Of a stretch of 64,000 nt of DNA, positions 45,028 through 49,860 are shown piece by piece; positions within the stretch are counted from its first letter, which is position 1; every line of letters begins with the position of its first letter. The DNA is taken from the NCBI RefSeq assembly GCF_003336205.1, contig NZ_QPIE01000001.1:1-64000 (forward strand). Direction: 5' to 3'. This DNA is from Chryseobacterium lacus. Its GTDB lineage: Bacteria > Bacteroidota > Bacteroidia > Flavobacteriales > Weeksellaceae. A program made the position numbers and the translations under genes. Under the pieces are notes generated by a model, which was not told the DNA's origin, searched no databases, and saw only the letters and a program-made list of their open reading frames with translations.

Positions 45028-46188
45028 CTAAACATTTATTTTTTCTATAGCCTGATTTTCAGCAATTTCCTTAAGTGCGGCAGTAAGGCTGTCTATTTCC
45101 TGAATCGTCGTAAGATGGCTGAAAGAAATGCGAAGTGGTGTCGTCTTTTTCATTTCCTCATCATCCAGAATCATCATCATCACCATCGAAGGCTTGGAAG
45201 CACCTGATGAACATGCACTGCCCTGAGAAACTGCAATGCCTTTCATATCCAGTTTTAATCCGATTAACGGATCATTAAACGGCAGCAAAAGACTCAGTAC
45301 CGTGTAAAGGCTTTCTTTTTCGGCACTTCTTCCGTTGAATTTTATACCGGGAACGGCGGCTGAAATTTTGTTGACAGCGTATTCTTTTACTTGCTGAATA
45401 TGAGAAGAATATCGCTCCATATTATGTATACAGATGTCCATTGCTTTTCCTAATCCTACGATTCCGGCCACATTTTCAGTTCCGGCACGCAAGCTTCTTT
45501 CCTGCGGGCCACCGGTAATGAGTGATTTTAATCCGGAAGATTTGCGGATAAATGCAAAACCACTTCCTTTCGGCCCGTGGAATTTATGTGCACTGCAGGA
45601 AGCAAAATCTACAGGAATTTCGGAAAAATCCAAAGGATAATGAGCCATACTCTGAACGGTATCCGAATGGTAAAGCGCACCATTTTCTTTACAGATTAAA
45701 GCTGCTTTCTTAATGTCGAGGATATTCCCTATTTCATTATTGGCGTGCATCAGTGAGACCAATGTTTTTTTACCTGAAGCTTTCAGTGCGGTTTCCAATT
45801 CATTCAGATTAAGATCACCATTTTTATCCGGACGCAGAAAAATGACTTCCACCCCATTCCGGGATTTCATTTCCATAATGGTTTCTGCAACGCATTTATG
45901 TTCCAATGGCGAAGTAATAATCCGTTCGACACCCAAATGATAAACACAGGATTTGATAATCATATTATTGCTTTCCGTACCACAGGAAGTGAAAACAATT
46001 TCTGAAGGACTTACGTTCAGATAACCCGCAATGTTTCTTCGCACATTTTCGATCAGGATTTTGGCATCTTGCCCAAAACTGTGTGTGGAAGAAGGATTTC
46101 CGAAACTTCTCATGGCAGCGATCATTTCACTGATTACAGCTTCATCCAAAGGTGTTGTGGCCGCATTATCCAGATAAATCTTGTCCAT
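45028..46188 (-). CDS. Cysteine desulfurase (NifS/IscS-like)
   Basis: A 386-residue PLP enzyme that takes sulfur from cysteine for iron-sulfur clusters and thiolated tRNA. Family features are YLDNAATTPLD at residues 4-14, HANNEIGN near 148-155, the PLP Lys202 in SCSAHKFHGPKG, and the catalytic Cys326 in GSACSSGASKPS. The short active-site loop is of the IscS/NifS group, not the SufS group. No iscU or iscA gene is adjacent. The start is ATG 46188; an in-frame ATG at 46197 adds three residues. Confidence 0.92.
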   Translation of the reverse strand: MDKIYLDNAATTPLDEAVISEMIAAMRSFGNPSSTHSFGQDAKILIENVRRNIAGYLNVSPSEIVFTSCGTESNNMIIKSCVYHLGVERIITSPLEHKCVAETIMEMKSRNGVEVIFLRPDKNGDLNLNELETALKASGKKTLVSLMHANNEIGNILDIKKAALICKENGALYHSDTVQSMAHYPLDFSEIPVDFASCSAHKFHGPKGSGFAFIRKSSGLKSLITGGPQERSLRAGTENVAGIVGLGKAMDICIHNMERYSSHIQQVKEYAVNKISAAVPGIKFNGRSAEKESLYTVLSLLLPFNDPLIGLKLDMKGIAVSQGSACSSGASKPSMVMMMILDDEEMKKTTPLRISFSHLTTIQEIDSLTAALKEIAENQAIEKINV

Positions 46189-46213
46189 TGTGTGCATTTT
46201 TAAGGATTCAAAA

Positions 46214-46801
46214 TTAATGAAAAAACCGGAAATGGCTTTCATCTGCCCAATTCAGCATAGCTTGATCTGCCTTAGTATCTCCAAAGGCAATAGTTTTATC
46301 AAATTGTTTGTCTTTAATTTCTTCCAAAATGCGGTTCACTTTTTCATCTCCGTTACAGTTAATACCAACAAAATTTCCGGTGAAAATATCGTCTTTAAAT
46401 TCCGCATTAGTAGCCAAAAGCTTCATGCCGAAATGATCTGCAAAAGGCTGAACCCAAAGATCCAGCGATGCAGTAACGATAAGGCTTTCTACTTTTTCCC
46501 TATCCATTCCCGAAATGAAATCCAATGCATTCCGGCGGATCAATTCCGGATAATATTTTTGAAAAAAAAGATGTGCCTGCTGCTGAATTCGGTTTTTGGT
46601 CTCACCTTTCAAAACGGACGAAATAAAACTTCGCTTGACTTTTTCTGCCTCCAAAAGATTAATTTTCAAAAGTATAAAAAGTGGAACATGTTTCACAAAA
46701 CTGAAATAGAATTTCCGACGGTTGTAAAATTTAAGAAAAAGAAACATGGTATCTTTATACGTGAGTGTGCCGTCAAAATCAAAACAATACAGTTTTTTCA
46801 T
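46214..46801 (-). CDS. HAD-IB family phosphatase, DPA operon
   Basis: A 195-residue haloacid-dehalogenase-superfamily hydrolase. Motif I is FDFDGTLTYKDT (Asp8 nucleophile, Asp10), motif II is in SLIVTASLDLW near residue 95, and motif IV is in GDTKADQAMLNWADES near 175. It belongs to the HAD-IB group that acts on small phosphoesters. It ends the operon with the UbiA, DprE1- and DprE2-like genes (9-base gap). A reasonable job is removing the 5-phosphate from polyprenyl-phosphoryl-5-phosphoribose before epimerisation, the step assigned to a different phosphatase (Rv3807c) in mycobacteria. That role is inferred from context. Confidence 0.85.
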   Translation of the reverse strand: MKKLYCFDFDGTLTYKDTMFLFLKFYNRRKFYFSFVKHVPLFILLKINLLEAEKVKRSFISSVLKGETKNRIQQQAHLFFQKYYPELIRRNALDFISGMDREKVESLIVTASLDLWVQPFADHFGMKLLATNAEFKDDIFTGNFVGINCNGDEKVNRILEEIKDKQFDKTIAFGDTKADQAMLNWADESHFRFFH

Positions 46802-46810
46802 AGATAGAAG

Positions 46811-47536
46811 TTACAGTTTTAATTTCTTAAAAACAAATTCAGGTATATTTCTGATGATCAACATGATGAATCGCCAAATCGGCAGTACATACACTACATT
46901 TTTTTTCTTGATATAAGCATTGTAAATATAATTTGCCACCTGCGGAGGATTGGCTGTTAACAAAGGATTCAAGGGCATTCCTTCGGTCATTTTGGTCGCC
47001 ATAAAACCGGGTTTTACAGTAATAACATGAACTTTTTTATCATAAAGATAATTGCGGAGGCCACTCAAATATGCTGTAAAAGCTGCTTTGGCAGATCCAT
47101 AAATAAAATTGCTTTGCCGTCCCCGTTCACCTGCAACAGAAGACAAACCGATGATTGTACCGAAACGTTTCCGTTCCATTTTATTCGCAAAATAAGTAAT
47201 TACAGGAACCAATCGGGCGTAATTGACAGCAATAATGCGATCGGTATTCCGATCGTCATAAAGGCCTTCTTCGGTATCCTCTCCCAAATATCCGACGGCG
47301 CAGAAAACGAGGCTGCTTTCTATTCCGGAAAGTTTTTTAAAATCCGGTTCTTTCATGAGATCCCACTCAATAATTTCAGCGTCCTGAAAAAACTTCACAT
47401 TAATATGCCTGGCAAACTTTTCTGTCGTTTCCGGATGGGAAGTGAGGAAATATATTTTTTCAAACCGTTCCCCTTCCTTCAGAATCTTTTCTACAAACGC
47501 CTGTGCAATGTCGGAATTACTCCCCAGAACTATCAT
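46811..47536 (-). CDS. SDR oxidoreductase, DprE2-like
   Basis: A 241-residue short-chain dehydrogenase. The nucleotide loop is VLGSNSDIAQAF at residues 3-14, like the GxxSxIG variant of DprE2. The catalytic triad is Ser132/133 (GLSSVAGERGRQ), Tyr146 and Lys150 (YGSAK). Mycobacterial DprE2 reduces the 2'-keto intermediate made by DprE1 to give decaprenyl-phosphoryl-arabinose. It overlaps the DprE1-like gene by 4 bases (ATGA), so the two are translationally coupled, as expected for partner subunits. Confidence 0.87.
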   Translation of the reverse strand: MIVLGSNSDIAQAFVEKILKEGERFEKIYFLTSHPETTEKFARHINVKFFQDAEIIEWDLMKEPDFKKLSGIESSLVFCAVGYLGEDTEEGLYDDRNTDRIIAVNYARLVPVITYFANKMERKRFGTIIGLSSVAGERGRQSNFIYGSAKAAFTAYLSGLRNYLYDKKVHVITVKPGFMATKMTEGMPLNPLLTANPPQVANYIYNAYIKKKNVVYVLPIWRFIMLIIRNIPEFVFKKLKL

Positions 47537-48888
47537 CTTTTATCATTCTTAATTGAGACAAAGCTTTCGTCTTTACCTGCGTTAATAATTCTTTTATGCT
47601 GATGTGATACAAATTTAGGATTGTTCACATTCCGGAGATAATTGGTAAGAGACGGCTTGCTCATCACATCTTTTGAAAGATAAATTCTTCCGCCGTACTG
47701 CTCCACAATTTCATCCAGTTTCTGAACTAGATTCTTTAGTTTTGAAGTCATTCTGAAATCCAAAGCGAGGGTATATCCTTCCATGGGGAATGAATTATAC
47801 GCCTTAGGATTATTTTTGCCAAAAAGTTTCAGCACGGCAAGAAACGATCCGCTTCCATCTTCTGCAATGGTTTCAAGAATCTTTCGCATGCCTTCTTTCC
47901 CGTTTTCTTTTGGGATCACCATTTGATACTGTATAAATCCTTTCTTACCATAAATTTTATTCCAGTTCTCTACCACATCCAAAGGGTAAAAAAAGGCTTC
48001 GTAATCTACTAGTTCATTGATTTTTTTTGTGGTTTGTTTTACATAATAAAACCAATTAAAAAATTTCACCGTCATTGAATTTAAGAAAAACTCAGGAAAA
48101 AAGAAAGGTATAGAGGGAGGATTTTTCTTTTTAATATGCAATGGATCTATCGATTTCTTGTGTGTCAACTCATGCCGGAATGCGTGTTCGCCGCGTATTA
48201 ATATAGATTTACCAATATTTTTTCCTTTCTGCAAACAATCGATCCAGGCTACGTTATAGGTCCAGTTTTCACTTTCATCAAACAACCGGAAGATTTCATC
48301 CAGATTTTCAGCCTTTATTCTTTCCTGACGAATATACGCCGTTTCAATGTTTTTCAGTTTTATTTTGGCTGAAAGAATAATGCCGGTCAATCCCATTCCA
48401 CCGATGGTAGCCCAGAATTTATCTTCATGAGAATTCCGGGAACAATGTAGAATCTCTCCATTTTCGGTAAGCAAGCTAAACGCTAAAACATGTTCAGAAA
48501 AACAACCTTCAGAATGATGATTTTTCCCGTGAACATCGGAAGCGACAGCACCACCCACTGTGATGAATTTCGTACCGGGTGTCACAGATAAAAAATACCC
48601 CTGCGGAACGATAACCTCCAGAATATCGGACAGCAGCACCCCGGATTCACACTCCAGAATTCCGTTCAATCTGTCAAAACTGATAAACTTGTTGAGCCTT
48701 TTGGTTGAAAACATTTTCTCGCCCAATGCAGCATCGCCATAACATCTTCCGTTTCCTCTGGCAATAATTTCGTGAGCGTTTTGCACATAGGCTTGTATTT
48801 CCCGGATATTTTCCTCAGCCTTTATTTCCTTTTCTACCACGGGAAAGTTTCCCCAATTGGTAATTTTCTGCACAAAATCCCGCTTCAT
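47533..48888 (-). CDS. FAD-dependent oxidoreductase, DprE1-like
   Basis: A 451-residue vanillyl-alcohol-oxidase-type flavoprotein. The FAD-binding domain spans about residues 10-180: IIARGNGRCYGDAAL at 41-55 and GGAVASDVHGKNHHSEG at 112-128, the latter with the His usual in DprE1. The C-terminal substrate domain contains SFPMEGYTLALDF at 366-378 and YLSKD at 403-407, where Lys406 aligns with the catalytic Lys418 of mycobacterial DprE1. The Cys387 targeted by benzothiazinones is replaced by Ala375. DprE1 oxidises polyprenyl-phosphoryl-ribose at C2'. Neighbours on both sides fit that pathway. Confidence 0.88.
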   Translation of the reverse strand: MKRDFVQKITNWGNFPVVEKEIKAEENIREIQAYVQNAHEIIARGNGRCYGDAALGEKMFSTKRLNKFISFDRLNGILECESGVLLSDILEVIVPQGYFLSVTPGTKFITVGGAVASDVHGKNHHSEGCFSEHVLAFSLLTENGEILHCSRNSHEDKFWATIGGMGLTGIILSAKIKLKNIETAYIRQERIKAENLDEIFRLFDESENWTYNVAWIDCLQKGKNIGKSILIRGEHAFRHELTHKKSIDPLHIKKKNPPSIPFFFPEFFLNSMTVKFFNWFYYVKQTTKKINELVDYEAFFYPLDVVENWNKIYGKKGFIQYQMVIPKENGKEGMRKILETIAEDGSGSFLAVLKLFGKNNPKAYNSFPMEGYTLALDFRMTSKLKNLVQKLDEIVEQYGGRIYLSKDVMSKPSLTNYLRNVNNPKFVSHQHKRIINAGKDESFVSIKNDKR

Positions 48889-48890
48889 CC

Positions 48891-49781
48891 TTAAAATGTT
48901 TTATAATAAATCAATAAAAAGTAGCTCACTACCCAAAGAATTAGCGTTGCCTGAATATACCGGTCTTTATAAATTATTTTGGTAGGAGACTCTGTTCGAT
49001 TATGAACCAAAGTTTGCTGAAGATAGCGTAAGAAGGCAAAAACAACAAATATAAAAGTGTAAAAAATCTTGTTTCCAAAACGGTTTTGCACTTCAGGCTG
49101 AACGGTAAACATCAGGTACGAAATAATAGCCAATGTTACTGAAATCGAAAGAGCAATATCGGCAAACTGTACGTTATAACCATCCAGAGAACGTCTGGTT
49201 TTTCCTGAAATTTGCGCGTTGATGAGTTCGCCCCGCCTTTTTCCAAGCGCCAGAACCAAAGCCAATACAAAAGTGAGAAGAATCGCCCATTGAGAAATCG
49301 GAATTTCTGTACTGTAACCTCCTGCCATCACTCGCAGTACAAAACCAATCGAGATAAGACACACATCGATAATGGCAACATGTTTCAGGCGGAAGGTGTA
49401 CGCCAGATTCATCCCTAAATAAGCGAGTATAACGATGGCAAATTTTCCGATATTCTGTTGTAATCCGGCAGTCAGAAATAGTAAGACACTGATAATTAAA
49501 CCAATAAGCAATGTTGCAATTCCCAATGCGGTTTTCTTTGAGATGGCTCCACTGGCAATGGGACGGTTTTTTTTGTCCGGATGCTGCCTGTCTGATTCAG
49601 CATCGGCATAATCATTAATAATATAAATCGTACTCGAAGCAAACGAAAAGACTACAAACGCAACGCAACTTTTTAAGAAAAGTTCTGTATTGAGAAAGTT
49701 TCCTGAGAAAAATAGAGGCAGAAAAACAAATAAATTTTTCACCCACTGTTCAACACGGAGAAGCGTAAGGAATTTCGTCAT
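48891..49781 (-). CDS. UbiA-type polyprenyl-phosphate phosphoribosyltransferase (DPPR synthase-like)
   Basis: A 296-residue membrane prenyltransferase-fold enzyme with about eight to nine helices. The first Asp motif, INDYADAESDRQHP at residues 55-68 (Asn56, Asp57, Asp60, Asp64), followed by KKNRPIASG, is nearly the mycobacterial Rv3806c sequence. The second motif YTFRLKHVAIIDV also matches Rv3806c and differs from UbiA quinone enzymes. It would attach 5-phosphoribose from PRPP to a polyprenyl phosphate, the first committed step to the arabinose donor. Start is ATG 49781; a TTG at 49802 is less likely. It is first in the operon, with 2 bases to the DprE1-like gene. Confidence 0.87.
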   Translation of the reverse strand: MTKFLTLLRVEQWVKNLFVFLPLFFSGNFLNTELFLKSCVAFVVFSFASSTIYIINDYADAESDRQHPDKKNRPIASGAISKKTALGIATLLIGLIISVLLFLTAGLQQNIGKFAIVILAYLGMNLAYTFRLKHVAIIDVCLISIGFVLRVMAGGYSTEIPISQWAILLTFVLALVLALGKRRGELINAQISGKTRRSLDGYNVQFADIALSISVTLAIISYLMFTVQPEVQNRFGNKIFYTFIFVVFAFLRYLQQTLVHNRTESPTKIIYKDRYIQATLILWVVSYFLLIYYKTF

Positions 49782-49840
49782 GTATTGCTGAAAATCATAC
49801 AAAAGTAATGAATTTTAGGAAACTGATGCGAATAAAAAAA

Positions 49841-49860
49841 GAACCGCTTTGCAGCGATTC
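49841..49860 (-). terminator. Intrinsic terminator after the OmpA-family gene
   Basis: Minus strand GAATCGCT-gcaa-AGCGGTTC followed by seven T residues, beyond the OmpA-family stop. It also separates that gene from the UbiA operon. Confidence 0.75.

Follow-up and report, generated by a model that had tools for sequence, protein, structure and literature searches.

A predicted polyprenyl-phosphoryl-arabinose operon in Chryseobacterium lacus and candidate users of its product in the Weeksellaceae

D-arabinofuranose (D-Araf) is a rare sugar whose donor pathway is targeted by anti-tuberculosis drug leads, and four adjoining genes of the flavobacterium Chryseobacterium lacus raise the question of whether this organism makes the same donor, how widely its relatives would do so and which transferase might then use it. 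The genes lie in the window analysed here, which covers the initial 64 kb of contig C1 in a 2.38 Mb assembly of 31 contigs, and encode, in order, a UbiA-superfamily protein, a DprE1-like flavoprotein, a short-chain dehydrogenase/reductase (SDR) and a HAD phosphatase (Table 1). Because of the four family matches together with the PDB matches, the conserved gene order, the co-occurrence of UbiA and DprE1 and the cases in which HAD and UbiA are one polypeptide, we consider it very probable that these genes form a pathway from phosphoribosyl pyrophosphate (PRPP) to polyprenyl-phosphoryl-β-D-arabinofuranose, the identity of each step being predicted from the family of its enzyme.

In the proposed polyprenyl-phosphoryl-arabinose (DPA) pathway, UbiA would transfer ribose-5-phosphate from PRPP to polyprenyl phosphate, the HAD enzyme would take off the 5-phosphate of the polyprenyl-phosphoryl-ribose-5-phosphate, and the DprE1-like oxidase and DprE2-like reductase would together invert C2 to give arabinose, on a carrier that is likely undecaprenyl. 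The donor would then be flipped to the periplasm, for which a GtrA-like protein is the candidate flippase, and be used there by one or more glycosyltransferases (GTs) of the GT-C fold. The likeliest user is a 529-amino-acid (aa) AftB-like protein, which would employ Asp39 as catalytic acid and place D-Araf onto an outer surface glycan; possible acceptors are lipopolysaccharide (LPS), another glycan or a glycoprotein, with arabinogalactan unlikely.

Table 1. Positions of the operon genes, the associated signals and the candidate transferases; positions are those of the window unless a contig is named
Feature	Position	Strand	Basis
UbiA-superfamily polyprenyl-phosphate phosphoribosyltransferase (PPPRS, Rv3806c type)	48891..49781	(-)	NF008978, PDB 8j8j
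DprE1-like FAD oxidase, predicted polyprenyl-P-ribose 2-oxidase half of epimerase	47533..48888	(-)	DprE1 model, PDB 4aut
DprE2-like SDR, predicted 2-keto reductase half of epimerase	46811..47536	(-)	PDB 21gq_C
HAD-IB phosphatase, predicted to dephosphorylate polyprenyl-P-ribose-5-P at position 5	46214..46801	(-)	TIGR01490, PF12710
Terminator-like hairpin with T tail, between upstream OmpA-like gene and operon	49843..49855	(-)	Consensus scan
TAnnTTTG box, 18 bases before the UbiA ATG	49800..49807	(-)	Motif scan
529-aa AftB-like GT-C candidate	C1:259426-261012 (outside the window)	(-)	Profile match to AftB
GT87 protein, clustered with GT2, polysaccharide deacetylase and GT4	C29:49369-50538		GT87 family, E 2.1e-20

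The enzymes of the predicted pathway

The UbiA protein scores 227.6 bits against NF008978, the model for decaprenyl-phosphate phosphoribosyltransferase (cut-off 207), and 58.6 bits against its best model outside the PRK12324/PRK08238 group, and it stays below the cut-offs of two sister NCBIfam models (222 against 234 bits for NF008977 and 177.5 against 474 for NF008976). Its two PDB matches at E up to 0.001 are both decaprenyl-phosphate phosphoribosyltransferases, led by 8j8j (E 4.8e-43), with which its acidic NDxxDxxxDxxHPxK-type motif aligns. By cut-off and motif the protein thus belongs to the polyprenyl-phosphate phosphoribosyltransferase family of Rv3806c. A UbiA tree was set aside as a guide to clade membership, its bootstrap not being settled and the rows presumed to be own-genome paralogues standing on branches of 6-10, one of these rows being perhaps not a UbiA.

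The flavoprotein reaches 405.9 bits against the DprE1 model NF053785 (cut-off 500), with the next model at 51.5 bits, and its matches to DprE1 in the PDB have E values between 1e-72 and 1e-78 (4aut, E 1.2e-78). The DprE1 core motifs GKNHH, QYQ, KLFG and KD align between it and 4aut, and HGKNHH, KD, Q320, Q322, K354 and G357 are invariant across 14 homologues. With the cut-off of NF053785 missed, the oxidase is called DprE1-like here, and it should function as DprE1 does. The SDR finds its best PDB match in DprE2 (21gq_C, E 1.6e-29; next match 1.8e-08) and scores 152.9 bits against the DprE2 model NF053786 (cut-off 250), which is outscored by the generic SDR model PRK07102 at 238.7 bits, itself short of its cut-off of 267. 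The missed cut-offs of the DprE1 and DprE2 models weigh against an arabinose product, and the substrate could therefore be another polyprenyl-phosphoryl-pentose.

A separate observation concerns the position of the mycobacterial DprE1 motif NVCVDF, which reads TLALDF in the window protein. The Cys of that motif (Cys387) is the residue that reacts with benzothiazinones, and natural insensitivity of the window protein to covalent benzothiazinones may therefore be expected.

The HAD protein scores 110.6 bits against the HAD-IB model TIGR01490, above the cut-off of 98.3, and 98 bits against PF12710; it has no match among PDB sequences. Its link with the phosphoribosyltransferase is genetic, in that HAD directly follows UbiA in two relatives that have only these two genes of the set (loci L142 and L143), and HAD and UbiA domains share one polypeptide in other DPA clusters (L075, L230, L246, L213 and L222). 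These fused HAD domains are of another subtype, since a phmmer search with the window HAD protein did not recover them. In a Leptolyngbya metagenome-assembled genome (MAG; locus L231, 4491-6116), a HAD-IB domain like that of the window (E 1.8e-26) lies beside DprE1 and is fused to a membrane domain, LPG_synthase_TM in Pfam, with UbiA there a separate gene; this fusion might hint at dephosphorylation coupled to lipid transport.

The first-pass annotation had described four tightly packed leftward genes making up a complete set from PRPP and polyprenyl phosphate to polyprenyl-phosphoryl-D-Araf, with a HAD enzyme in place of the mycobacterial phosphatase. All four open reading frames (ORFs) were found on the minus strand where it had placed them, the family matches support the predicted set, and the TIGR01490 score agrees with the substitution. 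It had also made its reading depend on the families of Rv3806c and DprE1, and by profile and PDB scores neither the UbiA protein nor the flavoprotein falls outside these, with the cut-offs of the DprE1 and DprE2 models missed.

Gene order and distribution

The pathway was surveyed in 197 Weeksellaceae genomes of 33 genera, including that of C. lacus, with presence called at E <= 1e-30 for UbiA and E <= 1e-20 for DprE1. UbiA occurs in 177 genomes (26 of the 33 genera) and DprE1 in 170 (24 genera), and the two travel together, both being present in 169 genomes and neither in 19, with eight holding UbiA only and a single one DprE1 only (G056, where the match lies at a contig edge of a 460-contig assembly). 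Around UbiA, the order UbiA-DprE1-DprE2-HAD is kept in 18 of the 26 other family genomes opened (14/20 and 4/6), two of these loci having an extra ORF inside the operon (L137 and L155), and the gene set is for this reason not a chance assembly. The eight exceptions comprise one locus at a contig end (L139), two with UbiA-HAD only (L142, L143), two with UbiA-DprE1 only (L131, L140), two with UbiA alone (L133, L151) and one with UbiA-DprE1-DprE2 and an assembly join, in which no HAD was seen (L156).

Across the phylum, DprE1 was found in 52 of 247 sampled genomes, and among the matches listed none comes from any of the order's other families; the negatives of this sample comprise 20 listed genomes, all of one such family, and 175 more that are not itemised. 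The named DprE1 relatives include Chryseobacterium, Epilithonimonas and Chishuiella, of which Chryseobacterium and Chishuiella are Weeksellaceae. A genome-collection search confirmed at least 579 DprE1 relatives, and the best 80 of these, which were examined, come from many phyla. Counting the 72 of these 80 loci in which a simple ORF caller gave a DprE1 label, UbiA is among the neighbouring genes in 60, as an ORF of more than 400 aa in 18 of them; five long UbiA ORFs were checked against Pfam, and four (L213, L222, L230 and L246) hold HAD plus UbiA and one (L224) UbiA only. With relatives in many phyla and UbiA beside DprE1, the DPA operon is thus neither rare nor unique to mycobacteria.

The eight genomes with UbiA only have no DprE1 match anywhere and make up two genera as sampled, both genomes of g23 and all six of g24. 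In the one genome opened for each genus, UbiA is directly followed by HAD (L142, 9178-10668, in g23; L143, 8889-10383, in g24), and DprE1 and DprE2 are both missing from the operon; DprE2 was sought within the operons. Because the epimerase gene alone sets the pentofuranose in Citrobacter (PMC11127046), g23 and g24 should, by analogy, carry a ribose donor instead of an arabinose donor, the same carrier then bearing ribose. Such natural losses would provide a test of how the choice of sugar depends on the epimerase.

Two other readings of the operon have to be set against the arabinose donor. UbiA might prenylate an aromatic compound, like the Ubi-297/ebo enzymes reported from marine flavobacteria, with the oxidase and SDR acting on a small molecule, as there is another flavobacterial UbiA protein, likewise with no closely related characterised enzyme, that farnesylates 8-hydroxyquinoline-2-carboxylate (PMC9235831); that protein, according to the same paper, sits in an ebo cluster (EboA-E) and was grouped apart from decaprenyl-phosphate phosphoribosyltransferases, whereas the window UbiA scores 227.6 bits against the model of precisely those enzymes and 58.6 outside the PRK12324/PRK08238 group, and has them as its only PDB matches at E up to 0.001. 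EboA, B, D and E are not among the operon neighbours (FAD oxidase, SDR, HAD, NifS-like, thioredoxin and OmpA-family genes), and on family scores and neighbours we rejected this reading as scarcely credible. The pathway might instead end at a different pentofuranose, either ribose or, by inversion at C3, xylose. The same entry pathway is reported to give ribofuranose (Ribf) or xylofuranose (Xylf) depending on the epimerase (PMC11127046), and the eight genomes with UbiA and without DprE1 fit such an outcome; against it, C. lacus itself has both DprE1- and DprE2-type halves, whose nearest solved relatives are arabinose enzymes, and candidate Araf systems are described as having DprE1/E2 homologues where Xylf systems have a homologue of ORF13 (PMC11127046). 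For C. lacus we regard this outcome as improbable, and the arabinose donor remains the preferred reading.

Candidate users of the donor

GT-C proteins were sought in the C. lacus genome with the Pfam families PMT_2 and GT87 and through operon neighbourhoods in other genomes. The 529-aa protein adjoins rpsL, rpsG and fusA (recognised by eye), and no family of Pfam or NCBIfam claims it above cut-off. A search with its sequence alone through the 80 related loci (1148 ORFs) gives two matches, one between UbiA and DprE1 in Heliomarina (L230, 121.6 bits) and one adjoining UbiA in a Campylobacteraceae MAG (L203, 95.5 bits). Divergent Weeksellaceae genera likewise have a GT-C-like multi-membrane protein in or beside the operon (L153, L154, L155 and L156), placed after HAD in L153, L154 and the Chishuiella locus L178, between DprE1 and DprE2 in L155, and split in two ahead of UbiA in L156. 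The proteins adjoining the operon in g22, g28, g8 and Chishuiella (L153, L154, L156 and L178) represent a second AftB-like type, and the L153/L154/L178 type and the 529-aa protein are remote relatives (hhalign profile-profile probability 96.7).

A profile of eight rows including the 529-aa protein (A3) has AftB (9dlf) as its sole PDB match up to E 10, at E 4.6e-6, and a version without the second type (A4) again matches AftB alone, at E 0.0026 over AftB residues 89-311. Among the 80 related loci, A3 additionally matches L178 and gives weak scores for another ORF of Heliomarina (42 bits) and for one next to the cluster in Pseudomonas indica (L204, 24 bits). In the A3 match, D62 and R221 of AftB fall on D39 and R182 of the 529-aa protein, Asp39 being kept in seven of the eight rows (not in L203) and Arg182 in all eight, with AftB R372 outside the aligned stretch. 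Asp62 is the proposed nucleophile of AftB, its alanine mutant being inactive, and Arg221 is also essential (PMC12041299). On this evidence the 529-aa protein probably uses the arabinose donor, a claim we hold with moderate confidence.

At E <= 1e-3, A3 matches 153 of the 197 family genomes, namely 150 of the 169 with UbiA and DprE1, none of the eight with UbiA and without DprE1, and three of the 20 without UbiA (G005 and G013, whose assemblies are 79-80% complete, and the DprE1-bearing G056). The scan scored at most seven candidates per genome, so that absences may include misses, and two of the 150 (G004 and G052) match only at about 3e-4. The 529-aa protein by itself matches 73 of the 197, all of which have UbiA, and none of the eight. 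DUF6080, taken as a control membrane family, occurs in 143/169, 8/8 and 3/20 of the same three groups; absence from the eight genomes is thus true of the AftB-like family and not of the control.

Several observations weigh against assigning the donor to this family. The three genomes in which DUF6080 occurs without UbiA are the same three, G005, G013 and G056, so the absence of the AftB-like family from genomes without UbiA is in part common descent; shared ancestry accounts for most of it, and it is hardly informative. The eight genomes without DprE1 represent two genera and therefore few independent events at most, 19 of the 169 genomes with UbiA and DprE1 have no A3 match, and five of the 197 match by construction, their own sequences being among the rows of the profile. 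As to the link with AftB, the 529-aa sequence alone has no PDB match to it, the second type alone reaches it at a non-significant E of 0.33 beside a chance match, and the L203 relative is without the DD motif; since A4 aligns with AftB from residue 89 onwards, the pairing of D62 with D39 comes from A3 alone. A3 does not match the GT-C-like protein encoded within the L155 operon, which may be of another family. A structure model of the L230 protein, built from five rows, had a mean pLDDT (predicted local distance difference test score) of 47.4 and was not used for a fold search.

It is rather unlikely, though a serious contender, that another GT-C enzyme, the GT87 protein of C. lacus, is the main user in place of the AftB-like protein. 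GT87 includes mycobacterial AftC, and the C. lacus protein is over the cut-off of that family; GT87 is present in 98 of 177 genomes with UbiA and 2 of 20 without, among them 7 of the 19 that have UbiA and DprE1 and no AftB-like match. Set against this, none was seen beside the operon in the loci inspected for GT87, the protein has no PDB sequence match, and the family does not follow arabinose, being present in four of the six g24 genomes, which are without DprE1. The 529-aa AftB-like protein therefore remains our preferred user. The GT87 gene of C. lacus and its relatives stands in a cluster (L067, 8545-13348) with a dapD-like gene, GT2 and GT4 and, in most members, a further gene that by eye is polysaccharide-deacetylase-like.

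Other candidates were set aside. A weak PMT_2 match at C21:206271 of C. lacus is DUF6080 and does not follow DprE1. A multi-membrane protein of about 540 aa beside the operon in other Bacteroidota (L070, L073 and L074) has no Pfam match at E 0.001. It also showed no similarity to the candidates from C. lacus when proteins with at least six predicted membrane segments, a set that left out L070_06, were compared all against all by phmmer. The second AftB-like type also occurs away from the DPA operon, where a protein of about 495 aa with the motif HIQEDAFITWRV adjoins a multi-membrane protein of 1161-1162 aa in g27, g11, g32 and g21 (L250:7773-9263, L251:7245-8735, L252:7764-9239 and L253:7618-9111). 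For the flippase, one GtrA-like protein of C. lacus is over cut-off (C12:381829-382239), and it is a candidate by family only, with a presumed link to the pathway; in L076 a gene between UbiA and DprE1 encodes a member of the GtrA family, and small ORFs with two or three predicted membrane segments occupy that position in several other clusters.

The earlier remark that no arabinosyltransferase is nearby holds for the window, which contains no A3 match, and needs amending for contig C1, elsewhere on which the good candidate lies. It is possible, and we put it forward tentatively, that most of the Weeksellaceae decorate a surface glycan with D-Araf by means of AftB-like GT-C enzymes with the DD motif, which most genera encode away from the donor operon. 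In two genera, on this view, loss of the DprE1/DprE2 pair from the operon would have changed the sugar on the carrier from arabinose to ribose, and the AftB-like enzyme is missing from them as well.

Operon layout and known systems

The four genes are packed between 49781 and 46214, with 2 bases between UbiA and the DprE1-like gene, a 4-base overlap of the latter with the SDR gene and 9 bases between SDR and HAD. The longest UbiA ORF opens with a TTG (position 49802), but most matches in the family set in at query residue 7-8, which makes the ATG at 49781 the more probable start. The operon has an OmpA-family gene upstream and, downstream, a NifS-like class-V aminotransferase gene and a thioredoxin gene; the NifS-like ORF as called (45028-46242) overlaps the HAD gene by 29 bases, and its likelier start is an internal ATG at about 46188. 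The hairpin and the TAnnTTTG box, the consensus of the Bacteroidota -7 box, precede UbiA, and the four genes may therefore form a transcription unit of their own. Both signals are statistically weak: hairpins with a T tail number 4 between positions 46000 and 50000 against 3.4 expected from shuffles, the position of this one being apt, and TAnnTTTG occurs 89 times in the window against 66.4 expected.

The first-pass annotation had remarked that the donor is best known from mycobacterial cell walls and that a HAD enzyme stands in for the mycobacterial phosphatase. Neither point is a surprise. The donor pathway has already been published for other bacteria (PMC5080398, PMC12369383, PMC11127046), and a HAD-family phosphatase is reported for the same step in PMC11127046. 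No report of D-Araf in glycans of Weeksellaceae or Chryseobacterium relatives was found among the titles retrieved, nor of such an operon in Bacteroidota among titles and abstract openings. The operon predicts D-Araf as a sugar of Chryseobacterium relatives, and, conserved as it is in a Gram-negative family that grows easily, it provides a convenient system in which to study DprE1/DprE2 and AftB-like transferases.

The mycobacterial and corynebacterial DPA pathway (Rv3806c, Rv3807c, DprE1 and DprE2) has the same transferase and epimerase families and the same predicted chemistry. It differs in that Rv3807c is described as unrelated to HAD-family enzymes (PMC11127046), where a HAD-IB phosphatase is found here, and in that the four window genes form one compact set. 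Closer in layout is the rhizobial noeCHOP/noeCNHOP operon for D-arabinofuranosylation of Nod factors, likewise compact and in a Gram-negative, in which three of the four DPA steps have been equated with noeC, noeH and noeO, with noeN suggested as the phosphatase (PMC5080398); it includes a proposed transferase, noeP, and the window operon has none. Pseudomonas paraeruginosa is also a Gram-negative with a D-Araf gene set, PSPA7_6245-6251, where the acceptor is type IV pilin (PMC12369383) and the phosphatase PA7_6246 is of a different structural family from the HAD domain (PMC11127046).

In Citrobacter youngae, the ORF15/14/12 (GT136) system shares the phosphoribosyltransferase and HAD-family phosphatase, followed by a flippase and a periplasmic GT-C, with the epimerase genes deciding the sugar, and the whole has been described as a widespread pathway (PMC11127046). 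In that system a single protein combines HAD and UbiA, and the flippase and GT-C genes share the O-antigen locus, whereas in C. lacus HAD is separate and the candidate flippase and GT-C are unlinked, neither gene having been found at the window operon, whose flanking genes belong to other families. AftB itself (family GT89; 9dlf, 9dlh), a retaining GT-C that adds terminal β-1,2-Araf, shares the positions of D62, in the DD motif, and R221 with the 529-aa candidate, at a remote, profile-level similarity only. The kind of operon is thus already known, from noeCHOP, the pilin-arabinose genes of P. paraeruginosa and the pentofuranose systems of PMC11127046, and what is new here is a predicted DPA route common to most Weeksellaceae, a candidate GT-C user of the donor elsewhere in the genome, and the genera that have UbiA and no DprE1.

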